Of a stretch of DNA of 64,000 nt, positions 13,084-22,438 are shown one piece after another (within the stretch, counting starts at the first letter, position 1; each line of letters starts with the position of its first letter). This DNA is from Bradyrhizobium prioriisuperbiae (GTDB taxonomy: Bacteria > Pseudomonadota > Alphaproteobacteria > Rhizobiales > Xanthobacteraceae): NCBI RefSeq assembly GCF_032397745.1, contig NZ_CP135921.1, forward strand, positions 2,108,001 to 2,172,000, given 5' to 3'. Below the pieces are notes generated by a model. The model was not told where the DNA came from. It saw only the letters and a list, made by a program, of their open reading frames with translations, and made no database searches. The translations under genes were made by a program, and so were the position numbers.

Positions 13084-13845
13084 ATGGATCGAAGCGACGA
13101 AACCACCCATTTCGGCTACCGGGACGTGCCGCTGGGCGAGAAGCAGACGCTGGTGAACGACGTGTTTCACAGCGTGGCCTCGCGCTACGACCTGATGAAC
13201 GATCTGATGTCGGCGGGCCTGCACCGGCTCTGGAAGGACGCGATGATTACCGCGCTCAATCCGCCGCGCGGCGACCAGCCATTCGCACTGCTCGATGTCG
13301 CCGGCGGCACCGGCGATATTTCGTTTCGCGCAGCCAAGGCGTCTGGTTTCGGCTTTCAGGCCACTGTCTGCGACATCAACACCGACATGCTGGAGGTCGG
13401 CCGCGACCGCGCCGTCAAACGGCAGCTCGACGATCGGGTGACGTTCGTCGAAGGCAATGCCGAAGCACTGAGCTTCGCGGACCGCAGCTTCGACGCCTAC
13501 ACCATCGCGTTCGGCATCCGCAACGTGCCGCGCATCGACGCGGCGTTACGCGAGGCGTTTCGCGTGCTGCGCCCCGGCTCGCGTTTTCTCTGCCTGGAAT
13601 TTTCCGCAGCCGACCTGCCCGGGCTGGACCGAATCTACGACATGTATTCGTTCAATGTCATCCCGGCGATCGGGCGCGCGGTGACCGGCGACGCCGAATC
13701 CTATCGTTATCTGGTGGAATCGATCCGGCAGTTTCCAAAGCCAAATGCCTTTGCCGAGATGATCCGCGACGCCGGCTTCTCACGCGTCAGCCATCAGGCG
13801 ATGTCCGGCGGCATTGTCGCGCTGCATTCGGGCTGGCGTTTGTGA
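13084..13845 (+). CDS. ubiE: Ubiquinone/menaquinone C-methyltransferase UbiE
   Basis: A 253-residue SAM-dependent methyltransferase for the C2 (ubiquinone) step. Signatures are [21 protein letters not shown], the SAM-binding [13 protein letters not shown], and [24 protein letters not shown] at 13084 is preceded by GAGAGAG and gives the family length. The stop codon overlaps the ubiB start (GTGA), so the two are translationally coupled in one quinone operon. Confidence 0.96.
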
Positions 13846-15413
13846 TTTCGGCGATCCCCCATGTCCTGCGCCTGACCCGCGCAGCGTATGTCGTTGCCCG
13901 CGAGGGCACCTTCGCCGTGGTCGATCCGGAGCCATTGCCGGCGCCGCTGCGTTTCATGCTGCGGGTGGCGCGGCTGATCGAGCGCCGCGACGCCAAATCC
14001 GGCCCGCGGCTGGCGCGGGCGCTGACCCGGCTGGGGCCGACCTATGTCAAGCTTGGCCAGGTGCTGGCGACGCGCCCCGATGTGGTCGGCGTCAAGATGG
14101 CGCGCGACCTGGAGCGGCTGCAGGACAAGCTGCCGGCATTCTCCCAGGCAGAAGCCGAGGCGGTTGTCGCCGCATCGCTGGAACGCCCGCTCGCACAGGC
14201 GTTTGCCGTGTTCGGCCCGTCGGTGGCCGCGGCCTCGATCGCGCAAGTGCATCGCGCCGAGATCGATAAAGATGGCGTGCGCCAACTGCCGGTCGCGGTG
14301 AAAGTGCTGCGGCCCGGTATCGCCGATCGTTTCCGCCGTGATACCAGCTCGCTGATGTTCGCCGCGCGCACCGCGGAGCGGCTCTCGTCGGAAGCTCGGC
14401 GGCTGCGCAGCATCGAGATCGTCGAGACGCTGGCGCGCTCGGTGGCGATGGAGATGGATCTCCGCCTCGAGGCGGCTGCGCTGTCGGAGATGACGGAAAA
14501 CACCCGCGACGATACGGATTTCCGCATCCCCACCGTGGACTGGGACCGTACCAGCCATCACGTGCTCACCATGGAATGGATCGACGGCATTCCGCTGAGC
14601 GATCGTCCCAGGCTGGAAGCGGCCGGCGTCGATCTGCCGGATCTCGGCCGCAAGGTGATCCAGAGCTTCCTGCAGCATGCGCTGCGTGATGGCTTTTTTC
14701 ATGCCGACATGCACCCGGGCAATTTGTTCGTCGACAGCGACGGCCGGCTGGTGGCGGTGGATTTCGGCATCATGGGCCGGCTCGGCATGAAGGAACGGCG
14801 CTTCCTCGCCGAGATCCTGCTCGGCTTCATCACCCGCGACTATCATCGCGTCGCCGAGGTGCATTTCGAGGCGGGCTATGTGCCCGCGCACCATTCGATC
14901 GACAATTTCGCGCAAGCCATCCGCGCCATCGGCGAACCGATCCACAATCGCCGCGCCGATGAAATCTCGATGGCGCGGCTGTTGACCCTGCTGCTCGAGG
15001 TCACCGCCCTGTTCGACATGCGGACGCGGCCGGAATTGATCCTGCTGCAAAAGACCATGGTGGTGGTCGAGGGCGTCGCCCGCTCGTTCAACCCGCGGCT
15101 CGACATTTGGAAAACCGCCGATCCGGTGGTGCGGGCCTGGATCGAACGCAATCTCGGCCCGATGGGCCGGATCGAGGGTGTCGCAAGCGGCGCCGGCCAG
15201 ATCGGCAAGCTCTTGTCCGGGCTGCCCGTCATTGCCGGCCGCGCGGTGGCGGCGCTGGAGCAGGTCGAGGCCATGACCCGGGAGGGCCTGGTGCTGGCGC
15301 CCGCGACTGTCGAGGCCATCGGCCGGGCCGAAGCGCGGCAGAACCGCTGGCAGACCCGGGCGCTCTGGGTGATCGCCCTGACGTTCCTGGCTATTCTCTG
15401 GAAAATTAGCTGA
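13842..15413 (+). CDS. ubiB: Ubiquinone biosynthesis kinase-like protein UbiB
   Basis: A 523-residue atypical kinase/ATPase needed for ubiquinone synthesis. The family-specific KxGQ motif is in [16 protein letters not shown], the Ala-rich loop in [13 protein letters not shown], and the kinase-like motifs in [13 protein letters not shown] and [12 protein letters not shown] hydrophobic C-terminal segment ([13 protein letters not shown]) suggests membrane anchoring. The start is GTG at 13842, overlapping the ubiE stop by four bases. The next gene, coaBC, begins after a 78-base gap with its own operator-like sequence. Confidence 0.95.
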
Positions 15414-15414
15414 T

Positions 15415-15454
15415 ATGATATCATTGCAATCAAATATTGATGGCATTGATATCA
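15415..15454. promoter_or_regulatory. Triple dyad operator-like region before coaBC
   Basis: Three dyads are evenly spaced: ATGATATCAT (15415-15424), ATCAA-ATA-TTGAT (15429-15441) and TGATATCA (15447-15454). Their centres are about 15.5 bases apart, and the outer two share an identical TGATATCA exactly 31 bases apart, close to three helical turns. The A+T-rich stretch stands out in a GC-rich region. Such phased short dyads are the usual target of ribbon-helix-helix proteins, and the next gene encodes such a domain. Autoregulation is inferred. Confidence 0.6.
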
Positions 15455-15491
15455 TTTGCTAGCGTCGGCCATCCCCATCGAGGCGACGGAT

Positions 15492-16928
15492 ATGGCCAGT
15501 CTGACGGTTCGCAAGCTCGACGAAGCCCTGAAGGCCGAACTGCGGCTGCGGGCAGCCCGCAACGGCCGCTCGGTGGAAGACGAGGTCCGGGTCATCCTGC
15601 GCGATGCCGCCTTCGACCAGCCCACCGCCGGCGCTGGCCTGCCGGAGGCCGATCCATCCCCGTCGGAGAGCCATCCAGCCGCGCCCCTCGCCTCCGCTGC
15701 CGGACGGCGGGTGACCCTGATCATCGGCGGCGGCATCGCCGCCTTCAAGTCGCTCGACCTGATCCGCCGGCTCAAGGAGCAGAAGCTGCAGGTGCGCTGC
15801 GTGCTGACATCAGCCGCGCAGCAGTTCATCACACCTCTAAGTGTCAGTGCCCTGGCGCACGAGCCCTGCTACACCGACTTGTTCGATCCGCGCAGCGAGT
15901 TCGATGCCGGGCACATCCGCCTTGCCCGCGACTGCGATCTGATCGTGGTGGCGCCGGCGACCGCGGACCTGATGGCGAAGATGGCGAACGGCCATGCCGA
16001 CGACCTCGCCACCGCCATTCTGCTCGCCACCCATCGTCCGATCCTGCTGGCGCCGGCAATGAACCCGCTGATGTGGAGCAACCCCGCCACCCGGCGCAAT
16101 GTGACCCAGCTCACCCGCGACGGCGTGTTTCTGATCGGCCCCAATTCCGGCGAGATGGCCGAAGCCGGCGAGGCCGGCACCGGCCGGATGTCCGAACCGC
16201 TGCAGATCGCCGCTGCCGCGCTGGACGTGATACGTCCTCCGGCAAAGGACCTGCCGCTGCACGGCAAGCACGTCCTGGTCACCGCGGGGCCCACCCACGA
16301 GCCGATTGATCCGGTGCGTTATATCGCCAACCGCTCCTCCGGCAAGCAGGGCTTCGCCATTGCGGCGGCCGCCGCTGCGGCCGGCGCCGACGTCACGCTG
16401 GTGTCCGGCCCGGTGAACCTGGCCGATCCGGCCGGCGTCACCGTGAAGCGCGTGGAATCCGCGCGCGACATGCTGGCCCAGGTGCAGGCGACGCTGCCGG
16501 TCGATGTCGCAATCTTCGCTGCGGCCGTCGCCGACTGGCGCGTGGCCAATGCCGGCGAGCAGAAGATCAAGAAAACCGCAGGCGGCCTGCCATCGCTGAC
16601 ATTCGCGGAAAACCCGGACATCCTGGCGACGGTCTCGAAGCTTGCGACCAATCGCCCGCCGCTGGTGATCGGCTTTGCCGCGGAAACCGAACACCTGATC
16701 GACAACGCCCGCGCCAAACTCAAGCGCAAGGGCTGCGACTGGCTGGTGGCCAACGACGTGTCGCCCGCATCCGGCGTGATGGGCGGCGACCGCAACACCA
16801 TTCATCTTTTAACCCGCGAAACCGTCGACTCCGGCGCTGTCGAAACCTGGCCGGTGATGAGCAAAGGCGAAGTCGCGACAACATTGGTCGCGCGGATCGC
16901 CGAATCAATTGGAGACACCACGCAATGA
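15492..16928 (+). CDS. coaBC: CoaBC with N-terminal ribbon-helix-helix (FitA/VapB-like) domain
   Basis: A 478-residue fusion. Residues 1-40 read as an antitoxin-type ribbon-helix-helix domain: strand [10 protein letters not shown], then [19 protein letters not shown] and VRVILRDA. A Pro/Ala/Ser-rich linker (43-70) follows. Residues about 72-250 are the FMN-dependent PPC decarboxylase CoaC ([45 protein letters not shown]), and about 258-478 are the PPC synthetase CoaB ([20 protein letters not shown]). Together CoaB and CoaC make 4'-phosphopantetheine from phosphopantothenate. ATG at 15492 follows GAGGCGACGG; a TTG at 15456 lies inside the operator. The stop overlaps the dut start. Confidence 0.93.
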
Positions 16929-18097
16929 CCTCGCCCATCAGCATCGACGTCCAGCAGCTGCCGCATGGCCAGGATCTCCCGCTGCCCACCTACCAGACCG
17001 CACATGCGGCCGGCCTCGACCTGCTCGCCGCGGTTCCCGCGGATGCGCCGGTGGTGCTTGCACCGGGACAGCGCGCGCTGATTCCCACCGGACTCGCCGT
17101 TGCGCTGCCACCCGGATTCGAAGCACAGGTGCGGCCGCGCTCTGGCCTCGCCGTCAAGCACGGCATCACGGTGCTGAATTCGCCGGGCACCATCGACGCC
17201 GACTACCGCGGCGAGATCGGCGTGCCGCTGATCAATCATGGCGACGTTCCCTTCACCGTGCGCCGTGGTGAACGCATCGCCCAGATGATCGTCGCACCGG
17301 TGGTGCAAGCGGCATGGGTGCCCGTGACCTCGCTGTCGTCGACCGAGCGCGGCAGCGGCGGATTCGGGTCCACCGGACGGTCGTCAATGACACGTGCAAC
17401 GCTGCTGAACGATCTTGCCGAACGCATTACGCGTCTCGCACCCGGGATGCCGATTCGCGTCGCCATCGACGGACGGACCGCCGCCGGCAAGACCACTCTG
17501 GCGGACGAACTTGCCGTCGCGATCAGCCGCAGCGGCCGGGAGGTGATTCGCACCTCGATCGACGGCTTTCACCGGCCGAAGGCGGAACGTTATGCCCGCG
17601 GGCGCACGTCCGCTGAAGGCTACTACCACGACGCACGTGATCTCAAGGCCATCATAGCCCTGCTGCTGGCCCCGCTGGGCCCGGGTGGAGATCGGCACTA
17701 TCGCACGGCGTCATTCGACCTGGAGAACGATTGCCCGATCGCGCAGGACGCGCTGTCGGCATCCGCCGACGCCATCCTGATCGTCGACGGCACGTTCCTG
17801 CAGCGGCCGGAGTTGCGCGACGGCTTCGACCTGACGATTTTTGTCGAAACCTCCGAGCGCACCTCCGAACAGAGGGGCGTCAACCGCGATGCCGATCGTC
17901 TCGGCGGCATGGCGGCGGCGGGCCAGCTCTACGCGAATCGGTATAAGCCTGCCTTCGTCCTGTACGAGCAGCTCTGCAAACCGGCCGATAGGGCGGATGT
18001 GATTCTGGACAACGACGACCTTGAGCGGCCTCTGATGCGAATCCGTCCGGACGGACGGCTGTCGGCCAGCGCATACGCGCTCCCACGGAAACCATAG
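16925..18097 (+). CDS. dut: dUTPase fused to a uridine-kinase-like P-loop domain
   Basis: A 390-residue two-domain protein. Residues 1-152 are a complete trimeric dUTPase that hydrolyses dUTP to dUMP, with motifs AGLDLLA (29), PRSGLA (71), [10 protein letters not shown] (88), ERIAQMIV (116) and [10 protein letters not shown] (142). Instead of ending after GSTGR, the frame runs on through Ser-Ser-Met155 into about 235 residues resembling uridine/cytidine kinases: Walker A GRTAAGKT (183-190), then [17 protein letters not shown] and [12 protein letters not shown] codons at 17387 could mark an old second gene start, but no stop separates the parts. Fusion partner function is inferred. The start overlaps coaBC (ATGA). 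Confidence 0.88.
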
Positions 18098-18401: not shown

Positions 18402-20906
18402 ATGTCGGGCGTGGTCAGGGCGATACGTCGGACCTTGATGACGGGCACCGCGCTTGTGCGCGGTGGTCTCTGCGCCGCGCTGTGCGCGACGTCTGCACTG
18501 GCCGACAGCGGCAGGCCCTCGCTGCTCTCCCTGGAAGACATCTTCACCCTCAGCCAGCAGGAAACCGCGGCCCTGGCCGTGGCCGCAGCGATCCTCGGCT
18601 TCACCGTGGTCGCGACCATCCTGCTGATGCGCACGCGGGTGCGCGCATCGCGCGTCGAAACCCGGCTGCGCGCCGACGTGCGCGGGCTGCAGGCCGAGAC
18701 CGACAGCCTGCGCGCACTGCTGTTCACCGAACCGCAGGTGCTGATCTCCTGGCCGGCAGCGGGCACCCGCCCTGATATCAGCGGTGATCTCGCCTTGCTG
18801 CTGCCGCAGACCGCCCAGCAATCGCCGCAGCGCGTGCTGGCGTTCGGCACCTGGCTGCAGCCCGAGCAGGCGCTGAAGATGGATCACGCCGTCGACGCGC
18901 TGCGCGCTGACGGCACGAGTTTCACCCTGCAATTGACCACATCGGCGGGACGGTCGATCGAGGCGCTGGGACGGGCGATCGGCGGCCAGGCCATCGTTCG
19001 CCTGCGCGAATTGAGCGGCGTGCGCCGCGAACTCGCGGAAATGACCCTGCGCCACCGCGACCTGCAGGAGGAGACCGGGACACTGCGGGCCTTCGCCGCC
19101 GCCCTGCCATGGCCGGTGTGGGCGCGCCGCGATGACGGCACGCTGGCGTTCGCCAATGCCGCCTATGCGCAGGCGACCGAGGCGACCGACGTCACCGACG
19201 CGGTCGGCCGTAACCTGGAACTGCTGGACAGCGGCGACCGGCAGGACATGACGCGGGCACTGAGCGAGACCGCGAACTTCAACGCGCGGCTGCCAATCGT
19301 GATCGGCGGCCAGCGGCGGATGTTCGACGTGCGCGCGCAGCGCGTCGCCGGTGGCACCGCCGGCGTCGCAGTCGATGCCAGCGAAGCGGCCATGCTGACC
19401 GACGCGCTGGAGCGCATGGCGGAGGCGCATCGCCGCACGCTCGATCAGCTCTCCTCCGGGGTCGCCGTGTTCGACGGCCAGCGCCGGCTGGCGTTCTACA
19501 ACGACTCCTACCGGCGGCTGTGGAACCTGGACCCCGCGTTCCTCGACAGCAATCCCGACGATTCCAGCGTGCTCGACCGGCTGCGCGCGGCCCGCAAGAT
19601 CCCGGAGCAGCCGGACTTCCGGCAATGGAAGAACAAGCTGCATGAGGCCTATCGCGCGGTCGAGACCGCCAAGGACGTCTGGTATCTGCCCGACGGCCGC
19701 GCGCTGAGTGTGGTGACCACGCCCAATCCGGAGGGCGGCGTCACTTATCTGTTCGACGACGTCACCGAAAGCCTCAAGCTCGCGCGCGAATTCGACGGAC
19801 TGATCCGGGTCCAGCGCGAGACCCTCGATAATCTGGCGGAAGCGGTCGCGGTGTTCGGCAGCAACGGCCGGGCACAGCTGTTCAATCCATCGTTTGTGAA
19901 GATGTGGCAGCTGACGCCGGAGGCGATGGAGGCCCACCCGCACATCGAGACCGTGGAAGGCTGGTGCAAGCCGCTGTTCGACGATGCCACGACATGGCGC
20001 ACCATCCGTGCCGCCATCACCGGCATCGATGACCGCAAGCCGGTGCCGCTGAAACTGGAGCGCAAGGACGGCAGCGTGCTCGACTGCATGGCGATGCCGC
20101 TGCCCGACGGCGCCACCATGCTGACGTTCCAGGACGTCACCGACACCGTGAACGTGGAACGCGCGCTGCGCGAACGCAACGAGGCGCTGGAGACCGCCGA
20201 CCAGATGAAGGTCGACTTCGTCCACCACGTCTCCTACGAGCTGCGCTCGCCGCTCACCACCATCATCGGCTTCGCGCATTTCCTCAGCGATCCCGCCACC
20301 GGGCCACTCACCGTCAAGCAGGACGAATATCTCGGCTACATCACCTCATCGACCAATGCGCTGCTCGCGATCATCAACAACATCCTGGATCTCGCCACCA
20401 TCGACGCCGGCGCGATGACGCTCAATCTCGGCCCGGTCGACATTCGGCGCACCATCGAGGCCGCCGCCGAAGGCATCCAGGACCGACTGGCGCGCGACCA
20501 CATCAAGCTCGAAATCGATGCCGATCCCGGCATCGGCCAATTCGTCGCCGATGAGCGGCGCATTGTGCAGGTGCTGTATAATCTGCTGGCCAATGCGGTG
20601 GGCTTCTCGCCGCAGGATGGTCTCATCACCATCAGCGCGCGCCGCAACACCGACAACGTCTCATTCACCGTCAGCGATTCCGGGCCCGGCATTCCACCCG
20701 ACGTCAAGGACAAGGTGTTCGACTGGTTTGAAAGTCACACCAACGGCTCGCGGCATCGCGGCGCGGGCCTCGGCCTGTCGCTGGTGCGCTCGTTCGTCGA
20801 ACTGCATGGCGGCAAGGTCCGGGTGGACTCCGTGGTCGGCAAGGGCACGTCGGTGACTTGCGATTTCCCAAGTGACCAGGCCGCGCACCGCACCGCCGCC
20901 GAATGA
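18402..20906 (+). CDS. divL: DivL-like sensor kinase with tyrosine in the H-box
   Basis: An 834-residue membrane signalling protein. The N-terminus has a signal or first membrane segment (RTLMTGTALVRGGLCAALC) and a second hydrophobic helix (AALAVAAAILGFTVVATILLM). PAS-type sensing regions follow at about 240-500 and 510-590. The H-box is HVSYELRSPLTTIIGF, with Tyr612 where His is normal, and the ATP-binding boxes NLLANAV, SDSGPGIP and GAGLGLSL are intact. Tyrosine here is the hallmark of Caulobacter DivL, which modulates the CckA-CtrA cell-cycle pathway. The location before tsaE also matches. ATG 18402 follows GGCAGGGGC. Confidence 0.9.
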   Translation: MSGVVRAIRRTLMTGTALVRGGLCAALCATSALADSGRPSLLSLEDIFTLSQQETAALAVAAAILGFTVVATILLMRTRVRASRVETRLRADVRGLQAETDSLRALLFTEPQVLISWPAAGTRPDISGDLALLLPQTAQQSPQRVLAFGTWLQPEQALKMDHAVDALRADGTSFTLQLTTSAGRSIEALGRAIGGQAIVRLRELSGVRRELAEMTLRHRDLQEETGTLRAFAAALPWPVWARRDDGTLAFANAAYAQATEATDVTDAVGRNLELLDSGDRQDMTRALSETANFNARLPIVIGGQRRMFDVRAQRVAGGTAGVAVDASEAAMLTDALERMAEAHRRTLDQLSSGVAVFDGQRRLAFYNDSYRRLWNLDPAFLDSNPDDSSVLDRLRAARKIPEQPDFRQWKNKLHEAYRAVETAKDVWYLPDGRALSVVTTPNPEGGVTYLFDDVTESLKLAREFDGLIRVQRETLDNLAEAVAVFGSNGRAQLFNPSFVKMWQLTPEAMEAHPHIETVEGWCKPLFDDATTWRTIRAAITGIDDRKPVPLKLERKDGSVLDCMAMPLPDGATMLTFQDVTDTVNVERALRERNEALETADQMKVDFVHHVSYELRSPLTTIIGFAHFLSDPATGPLTVKQDEYLGYITSSTNALLAIINNILDLATIDAGAMTLNLGPVDIRRTIEAAAEGIQDRLARDHIKLEIDADPGIGQFVADERRIVQVLYNLLANAVGFSPQDGLITISARRNTDNVSFTVSDSGPGIPPDVKDKVFDWFESHTNGSRHRGAGLGLSLVRSFVELHGGKVRVDSVVGKGTSVTCDFPSDQAAHRTAAE

Positions 20907-22438
20907 CATCGCCAGCCACATTCTCGCTCGCTCTCGCCAACGAAACGGCCACCGCGCACCTGATGGCCGATCTGGCGCTGCTGATCGGGCCGGGCGACGT
21001 CATCACCCTGACCGGCGATCTCGGCGCCGGCAAAACCGCGGCCGCCCGCGCATTGATCCGTTATCTCGCCGGCGACGAGACGCTGGAGGTCCCGAGCCCG
21101 TCCTTCACGCTGGCCCAGGGCTATGAGCTTCCCGCCTATCCGGTGCTGCACGTCGATCTCTACCGCGTCAACGATCCCAATGAGCTCGAGGAGATCGGCC
21201 TGGTGCCGCTGCCCGATGGCGTGGTGGCGCTGATCGAATGGCCGGAGCGCGCCGGCAACCAGCTGCCCGAGGACCGCATCGACATCACGCTGAGTCATCG
21301 CCCGGCGCTGGGATCGAACGCCCGCGCCGCGGAAATCACCGGCCATGGCCGCGCCGCGGCGCAGGTGGCGCGGCTGGAAAGCCTGCGGCAGTTCCTCGAT
21401 CTCGCCGGCTACATGACCGCGCATCGCGTGCGCATGCCCGGCGACGCCTCGACGCGCAGTTACGCGCGCCTTGTCCGCGACGCCGATGACGGCGGCGGCA
21501 CCAGCATCCTGATGAATTCACCGCAGCGTCCCGACGGCGCCGCGATCTATGGCGGCAAGTCCTACAGCGCGGCCGTTCATCTCGCCGAAAACGTCAAGCC
21601 GTTCGTCGCCATCGCCAATGGCTTGCGCGCCAACGGCATCTCGGCGCCGGCGATCCATCACGCCGATCTCGAAGCGGGCTTTCTCATCACCGAGGATTTC
21701 GGCAGCACGGGCTTTATCGACGGCACGCCGCCGGCTCCGATCGCCGAACGTTATCAGGCGGCCGCCGACCTGCTGGCGAAACTGCATCGCGAGACGCTGC
21801 CGGACACCCTGCCGCTGGTGCCGCAACGCGACTATCCGATTCCGACCTTCGATGTCGACGCCATGCTGGTCGAGATCGGCCTGATGCTGGAATGGTATCT
21901 GCCGGACCGCGACGTCCGACTGAGTGAGCCGCTGCGCGCTGAATTCATCACGATGTGGCGCGAGTTGCTGGCGCGTCCGGTGCTGTCACGCAAGACATGG
22001 ATGCTGCGCGACTATCATTCGCCGAACCTGATCTGGCTCGACGACCGCCAGGACATCGCCAAAGTCGGCGTGATCGATTTCCAGGACACCGTGCTCGGGC
22101 CGCCGGCTTACGACATGGTGTCGCTGGCGCAGGATGCGCGCATTGACATTCCCGACGAATTGGAGATCGCGCTGCTGACCCGTTATGCCAAGGCCCGCCG
22201 CGAAACGGACTCCAGCTTCGATCCGCCGGCGTTTGTCGAGAGCTATGCCATCATGTCGGCGCAGCGCAACACCCGCCTGCTCGGCACCTTTGCGCGGCTG
22301 AACCGCCGCGACGGCAAGCCGCATTATCTCAAGCACCAGCCCCGGATCTGGACGTATCTGAACCGTTCGCTGGCCCATCCGGCCTTGGCGACGCTACGCG
22401 CCTGGTATGAGGCCCACGTTCCGCCGCCCAAGACCTGA
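20903..22438 (+). CDS. tsaE: TsaE-AmgK fusion: tRNA t6A ATPase plus sugar kinase
   Basis: A 511-residue fusion. Residues 1-150 are TsaE, the ATPase of the tRNA threonylcarbamoyladenosine complex (Walker A GDLGAGKTAAAR, then LEVPSPSFTLAQGY and HVDLYR). Residues about 165-511 are an aminoglycoside-phosphotransferase-fold kinase (SRKTWMLRDYHSPNLIWL, GVIDFQDTVLGPPAYD) matching AmgK, which phosphorylates MurNAc/GlcNAc at the anomeric position in peptidoglycan recycling. Such fusions are known in Rhizobiales. The start overlaps divL by four bases, and murU, the next step for AmgK's product, follows nearby. Confidence 0.92.
   Translation: MTSPATFSLALANETATAHLMADLALLIGPGDVITLTGDLGAGKTAAARALIRYLAGDETLEVPSPSFTLAQGYELPAYPVLHVDLYRVNDPNELEEIGLVPLPDGVVALIEWPERAGNQLPEDRIDITLSHRPALGSNARAAEITGHGRAAAQVARLESLRQFLDLAGYMTAHRVRMPGDASTRSYARLVRDADDGGGTSILMNSPQRPDGAAIYGGKSYSAAVHLAENVKPFVAIANGLRANGISAPAIHHADLEAGFLITEDFGSTGFIDGTPPAPIAERYQAAADLLAKLHRETLPDTLPLVPQRDYPIPTFDVDAMLVEIGLMLEWYLPDRDVRLSEPLRAEFITMWRELLARPVLSRKTWMLRDYHSPNLIWLDDRQDIAKVGVIDFQDTVLGPPAYDMVSLAQDARIDIPDELEIALLTRYAKARRETDSSFDPPAFVESYAIMSAQRNTRLLGTFARLNRRDGKPHYLKHQPRIWTYLNRSLAHPALATLRAWYEAHVPPPKT

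Follow-up and report, generated by a model that had tools for sequence, protein, structure and literature searches.

The coaBC gene in the 64,000-nucleotide stretch of Bradyrhizobium prioriisuperbiae DNA analysed here (the window) encodes a coenzyme A (CoA) enzyme whose first 41 residues are identified, from sequence comparisons, as a ribbon-helix-helix (RHH) domain of the FitA type, joined to an intact CoaBC, and a putative operator stands before the gene. Our overall account, to which we give a probability of about 0.82, is that a fitAB module lay between ubiB and coaBC, that its toxin was lost and its RHH domain joined to CoaBC, and that the resulting protein would repress itself at the coaBC promoter. 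CoA synthesis is generally said to be controlled by feedback inhibition of its enzymes; in the present case an essential enzyme of the pathway bears a repressor-type domain and is accompanied by an operator. A paper on the mycobacterial enzyme likewise frames this control as enzyme feedback inhibition (PMC7794376, in part). The features of the region are as follows.

13842..15413, + strand: UbiB/ABC1-type kinase gene, directly upstream (PF03109, 249 bits)
15416..15432, + strand: operator dyad 1, TGATATCATTGCAATCA, an exact match to the dyad common to RHH-coaBC loci
15438..15454, + strand: operator dyad 2, TGATGGCATTGATATCA, also an exact match, its centre 22 bp from that of dyad 1
15437..15465, + strand: putative promoter-like TTGATG-N17-TAGCGT, with its -35-like half inside dyad 2
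15492 (ATG) to 16928 (stop), + strand: RHH-coaBC open reading frame, 478 aa
15492..15614, + strand: FitA-like RHH domain, residues 1–41, identified by PF22513, the domain model and conservation (helices 11–24 and 28–41)
15615..15701, + strand: Pro/Ala-rich disordered linker, residues 42–70 (pLDDT <50 at 42–68)
15702..16928, + strand: CoaBC, phosphopantothenoylcysteine decarboxylase and phosphopantothenate-cysteine ligase (TIGR00521, PF02441, PF04127)

A first-pass annotation had assigned residues 1–40 to the FitA/VapB type of RHH domain, joined through a Pro-rich linker to an intact CoaBC, and both parts of this description are borne out. A profile search places PF22513 (FitA-like_RHH) on residues 2–40 at 59.6 bits, against a cut-off of 27, and a search of PDB sequences with the RHH domain returns FitA chains with E-values of 4.7e-4 and 5.7e-4. 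In a model of residues 1–52, an extended segment (1–10) is followed by helices at 11–24 and 28–41, that is, a ribbon and then two helices. The three best fold matches of this model are FitAB-DNA chains (Foldseek probability 0.95–0.99, E 0.16–0.20), and Arc and CopG are also among the matches. No match in the fold search reaches E 0.001, and such weak E-values are expected because the RHH domain is so small. In the full-length monomer model, residues 2–7 form a low-confidence helix where a strand is expected. RHH ribbons form as dimers, so that a monomer model is a poor test of the ribbon.

The CoaBC part is matched by the TIGR00521 equivalog model over residues 71–469, at 388.2 bits against a cut-off of 219.7, and has all four catalytic motifs (GHIRL, PAMN, NRSSG[KR]Q and K-x-K-K). 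Over the 94 fused rows compared, GHIRL is kept in 93, NRSSG[KR]Q and K-x-K-K in all 94, and PAMN, counted in its six commonest forms, in at least 88. DFP, Flavoprotein and FitA-like_RHH are the only Pfam families above cut-off in the fused protein; PRODH and P5CDH are not among them.

The linker differs between lineages, with no conservation in the aligned fusions. Its character bears on whether repression might operate in one metabolic state only, for example when CoaB holds CoA thioesters or according to the FMN redox state, a refinement that we consider possible without expecting it. CoA and acyl-CoAs inhibit mycobacterial CoaBC with IC50 values of 38–148 µM (PMC7794376, in part), so that gating by CoA thioesters could be envisaged, and PutA, itself an RHH-flavoenzyme, switches function with its substrate proline and its flavin state (PMC5293562, in part). 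The sequence gives no sign of such coupling, however, and the length of the linker, its disorder in the model and its lack of conservation argue against tight allostery.

Directly 3′ of coaBC, at 16925–18094 (+), a dUTPase (residues 18–151) lies in frame with a uridine-kinase/PRK-like domain (residues 179–361; 24.6 bits, cut-off 22) in an apparent fusion. Further on, at 20903–22435 (+), TsaE shares one frame with an APH-type phosphotransferase domain.

The favoured account derives the RHH domain from a toxin-antitoxin module, and the gap between ubiB and coaBC in relatives is where traces of this module are seen. Upstream, ubiB is present at 83 of 94 fused loci and at all seven loci where the RHH is encoded separately; it was not found within the stretch examined in the other 11 fused loci. 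At four loci (L145, L165, L166 and L164) a fitA gene and an intact PIN-domain fitB stand between ubiB and coaBC, the four toxins scoring 44.1, 42.8, 54.8 and 45.3 bits against PF01850 (cut-off 23.6). L145, L165 and L166 belong to one genus and L164 to another. L144, of the latter genus, has fitA and, as judged by eye, only the two ends of fitB. L146 has fitA with a still shorter fitB remnant, also recognised by eye. One family of genomes presents, in the same gap, an intact toxin-antitoxin pair, a broken toxin with a free antitoxin, the fusion, or nothing. In the window there is no PIN toxin gene directly downstream of the RHH, and CoaBC continues in the same frame.

Three further loci from the genus of L164 and L144 (L147, L167 and L168) have neither fitA nor fitB before coaBC, and their ubiB-coaBC gap contains a repeat-like stretch similar to that described below for L116.

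The dyad described below is found before some of the free fitA genes, being exact in L164 and L146 and carrying two mismatches in L166; at ≤2 mismatches it is missing in L144, L145 and L165, that is, in three of the six free-fitA loci before coaBC. L174, a fused locus from the genus of L146, has a linker that resembles the FitA tail (E 0.0064, with 6 of 2000 shuffles scoring as high). Among the 94 fused linkers it is the only one below E 1 against the FitA tail profile, and the window's own linker is not matched. A search with the L145 FitB finds a match in 83 of 198 genomes, and adjacency of fitB to coaBC, judged by eye from the CoaBC coordinates of 61 + 19 genomes, in four.

In a tree of CoaBC sequences (166 of the 178 rows, after near-copies were dropped) the fused label requires 11 changes, compared with a mean of 55.7 when labels are shuffled, and the states are strongly clustered; the tree is unrooted and does not give the direction of change. 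L146 lies beside the fused L174 and L175 with 94% support, and the window's closest named relative is a Bradyrhizobium sp. In a tree of RHH sequences, which omits two fused rows (L137, unparsed, and L038, cut), eight free-standing FitA rows stand apart from the fused and intermediate rows with 82% support. With 38 columns this tree is too short for placing the fusions. On these comparisons RHH-CoaBC appears to go back to a toxin-antitoxin module, fitAB, situated between ubiB and coaBC, and domestication of an antitoxin is the most likely source of the fusion. Two histories are envisaged: repeated fusion, starting from a fitAB-coaBC arrangement in an ancestor, or renewed insertion of the module.

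The operator was defined by reading the DNA upstream of coaBC in relatives. Its unit is a 17-bp dyad, TGATNNCANTGNNATCA, made of two 8-bp boxes whose centres are 9 bp apart, and the boxes in relatives are most often of the TGATTGCA type. The two TGATATCA copies that had been reported 31 bp apart are indeed present in the window (15416–15423 and 15447–15454). The associated claim of three dyads phased at 15.5 bp does not hold, the shared unit being the 17-bp dyad in two copies 22 bp apart. Relatives do not share the middle AATATT dyad (15433–15438), and they vary in the bases between the dyads. Two non-overlapping dyads (≤2 mismatches) occur in 38 of 100 RHH-bearing loci, with 29 of 40 pair spacings at 22 or 23 bp, close to two turns of the helix; in the same loci, sites that overlap are in a 9-bp register 23 times.

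A TA---T element lies exactly 17 bp from the dyad's TTGAT-like -35 in 25 of 92 loci, as against 0–4 of 92 at each of the spacings 14–16 and 18–20; the window's TTGATG-N17-TAGCGT conforms to this arrangement. Overlap of operator and promoter fits only these 25 loci and is rejected as a general rule. Operators of Shigella VapBC overlap both the -35 and the -10 (PMC3384007, in part).

The association of dyad with RHH was seen in a first set of loci, in which the dyad lies within 250 bp of coaBC in 33, 41 and 50 of 52 RHH-coaBC loci at ≤0, 1 and 2 mismatches, respectively, and in none of 26 RHH-less loci, for which 400 bp were searched. The remaining 315 kb of DNA at the RHH loci of this set holds no site at ≤1 mismatch and seven at ≤2. 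Because the pattern was drawn from this set, it was tested on further loci. Among 28 loci fetched after it had been fixed (three of which repeat earlier loci, with L137 additional and not parsed) the counts are 18, 23 and 27 at ≤0, 1 and 2 mismatches, and in a second later set all 12 fused loci have the dyad at ≤1 mismatch. Pooling gives 178 loci, the window and repeat loci included. The dyad is then found within 250 bp of 61, 76 and 90 of 94 fused genes at ≤0, 1 and 2 mismatches, compared with 0, 0 and 1 of 77 coaBC genes without the RHH, for which the search covered 450 bp. The corresponding figures for the seven separate-RHH loci, one of which (L024) is a fusion whose linker contains a frame break, are 3, 3 and 4. 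In a phylogenetically independent comparison, underpowered with its four pairs on starred branches, dyad and RHH go the same way in 2.6 cases on average and the opposite way in none (median p 0.25).

Four fused loci are missed. The contig of L038 starts within coaBC, the dyads of L023 and L027 are found only with three mismatches, and L116 has two dyads further up, at -291 and -268, with extra DNA between them and the gene. Repeat-like DNA between operators and coaBC is a feature of both L116 and L003, which are close relatives; that of L116, GGATGGCCGGGACAAGCCCGGCCATGACG, lies within 270 bp upstream of the RHH start.

On the scale of whole genomes the perfect form of the dyad, TGATTGCANTGCAATCA, has 15 sites, in 15 of 61 genomes (∼293 Mb). 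By comparison of coordinates, 14 of these are directly before coaBC or its fitA; the other is in G443, whose coaBC is without an RHH. The 9.08-Mb genome of the window has no perfect copy and four sites of the degenerate pattern, two of them those described here, and a reversed control pattern has no site in it. Its other two degenerate sites lie between TetR-like and enoyl-CoA hydratase-like genes and inside a coding sequence, and, to judge by the ORFs on either side, neither is at a CoA-synthesis gene. No regulon spanning several CoA genes was found, perfect dyads being almost confined to coaBC across the 61 genomes. The comparison of loci and genomes supports the view that the operator accompanies the RHH on coaBC and that its perfect form occurs almost nowhere else.

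The site between the TetR-like gene and the divergent enoyl-CoA hydratase-like gene, at G000:C1:4337179-4337195 (L114), is a near-perfect palindrome, TGATAACATTGTTATCA; the functions of both genes are judged from ORF translations only.

The same data make it quite unlikely that RHH-CoaBC acts mainly on remaining fitAB loci or other genes, with autoregulation secondary. A candidate target of this kind is the window genome's own fitA at G000:C1:3175790-3175942 (L184), where TGATATCAATGATATATATGCTATCATTGATA lies upstream and the best 17-bp stretch is, by hand count, two positions off the coaBC dyad; cross-repression of this gene is conceivable from the match. The exact degenerate pattern is absent there, however, and 14 of the 15 perfect dyads in the 61 genomes, a count of the perfect form alone, are at coaBC.

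Conservation of the RHH domain itself was examined at the level of residues and codons. In 38 aligned fusions R7, A22, S27, E29 and R33 are invariant, and at least 90% retain M1, A2, S3 and T5. Among 93 parsed RHH sequences the ribbon positions are nearly fixed, with Ser at position 3 in 89, Thr at position 5 in 91 and Arg at position 7 in all 93. The ω value is 0.136 for RHH codons and 0.112 for the first 80 CoaC codons (70 pairs), and the RHH codons are under purifying selection. N-terminal conservation, together with this ω, supports a start at ATG 15492 rather than one past residue 60.

A reading about as unlikely as that of main targets elsewhere would make the RHH of CoaBC a passenger and assign the dyads to another regulator, such as the FitA of a chromosomal fitAB. 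Half-sites that look similar by eye, with no statistic attached, do lie upstream of seven of eight free-standing fitA-like genes, including that of the window genome, but the dyad accompanies the RHH on coaBC (90 of 94 against 1 of 77), and both the RHH as a whole and its ribbon positions show strong conservation. Although CoaBC often lacks the RHH in genomes of the same family, and the domain is therefore dispensable over evolution, the ω over its codons, its nearly invariant ribbon and the operator kept alongside make it hard to credit that the RHH is a decaying, functionless relic or that translation starts downstream.

The best reading is that CoaBC represses its own transcription through its own promoter, as its RHH is of the FitA type and is linked to an operator whose perfect form occurs almost nowhere else. 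A CoA enzyme repressing its own gene had been proposed at the outset; the RHH and a co-occurring operator before the gene are both found, and from them we infer binding and repression. The order of events that we envisage begins with the arrival of a FitAB-type module of the VapBC family between ubiB and coaBC. Deletion of the toxin would have followed, along with an in-frame union of CoaBC with the half of the antitoxin that binds DNA. The operator of the antitoxin would by now serve as the coaBC promoter, where the fusion protein most likely still binds and represses its own transcription. Two RHH dimers may occupy each 17-bp dyad, and the pair of dyads, spaced by roughly two turns of the helix, would lie over or beside the promoter. 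In FitAB the antitoxin binds DNA by its RHH and the toxin stabilises the assembly (PMC3920265, in part). CoaBC oligomers could replace this bridging or scaffold role of the FitB toxin, and mycobacterial (M. smegmatis) CoaBC is a dodecamer (PMC7794376, in part). CoaBC would in this way exert negative feedback on the gene that encodes it.

We hold only tentatively, as somewhat less probable than ligand gating, a wider scheme that combines capture of fitAB more than once, at one chromosomal site but in separate lineages, the CoaBC oligomer as bridging co-repressor in place of the toxin, repression set by CoA status and the quieting of other fitAB loci. If true, it would tie CoA supply to toxin-antitoxin activity through RHH-CoaBC.

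The architecture is, by sequence matching, widespread in Hyphomicrobiales and present in databases. Among 2094 candidate protein clusters, 1670 match the N-terminal 60 residues at E ≤0.001, with lengths 0.55–1.75 times that of the query, and each of the 120 clusters listed among these 1670 matches has an RHH and a Flavoprotein domain. RHH-coaBC loci occur in Bradyrhizobium, Rhodopseudomonas, Nitrobacter, Afipia, Mesorhizobium and Phyllobacterium, among others. No paper on RHH-CoaBC was found among the open-licence PMC papers searched. In the CoaBC passage of a paper that names both CoaBC and an antitoxin, coaBC figures in a gene list, and the text of a 2009 toxin-antitoxin survey (PMC2701414) contains none of the terms 'pantothen', 'Dfp' and 'FitA'. 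A Brucella ovis flavoproteome paper, where it deals with CoaBC, gives it Flavoprotein and DFP domains only. The range of states in the ubiB-coaBC gap makes the fate of chromosomal toxin-antitoxin modules directly testable.

Among known systems, FitAB (a VapBC-family type II toxin-antitoxin; 2bsq, 2h1o) is closest in the DNA-binding part. It has the same PF22513 RHH family and provides the best sequence and fold matches, a full fitAB occupies the same place in four relatives, and similar 8-bp half-sites, as seen by eye, precede free-standing fitA-like genes. In contrast to FitAB, the window has no adjoining PIN toxin gene and no recognisable toxin-binding tail, and the RHH is carried on a metabolic enzyme. 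The RHH of CoaBC is a member of the FitA-like family, not an antitoxin. MetJ, Arc and CopG also have short adjacent boxes read by RHH dimers, but these are stand-alone repressors with other boxes and spacing.

Ordinary CoaBC (M. smegmatis, 6TGV) shares both catalytic domains and the key motifs with RHH-CoaBC, whereas the RHH is absent in 77 of the 178 loci compared, and feedback on the mycobacterial enzyme acts on its activity (PMC7794376, in part). Trifunctional PutA (RHH-PRODH-P5CDH) likewise has an N-terminal RHH on a flavoenzyme and is an autogenous repressor of the put genes (PMC5293562, in part). It differs in its catalytic domains and pathway, RHH-CoaBC being biosynthetic and having no known membrane switch. 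By analogy, RHH-CoaBC probably works like PutA but is no PutA.
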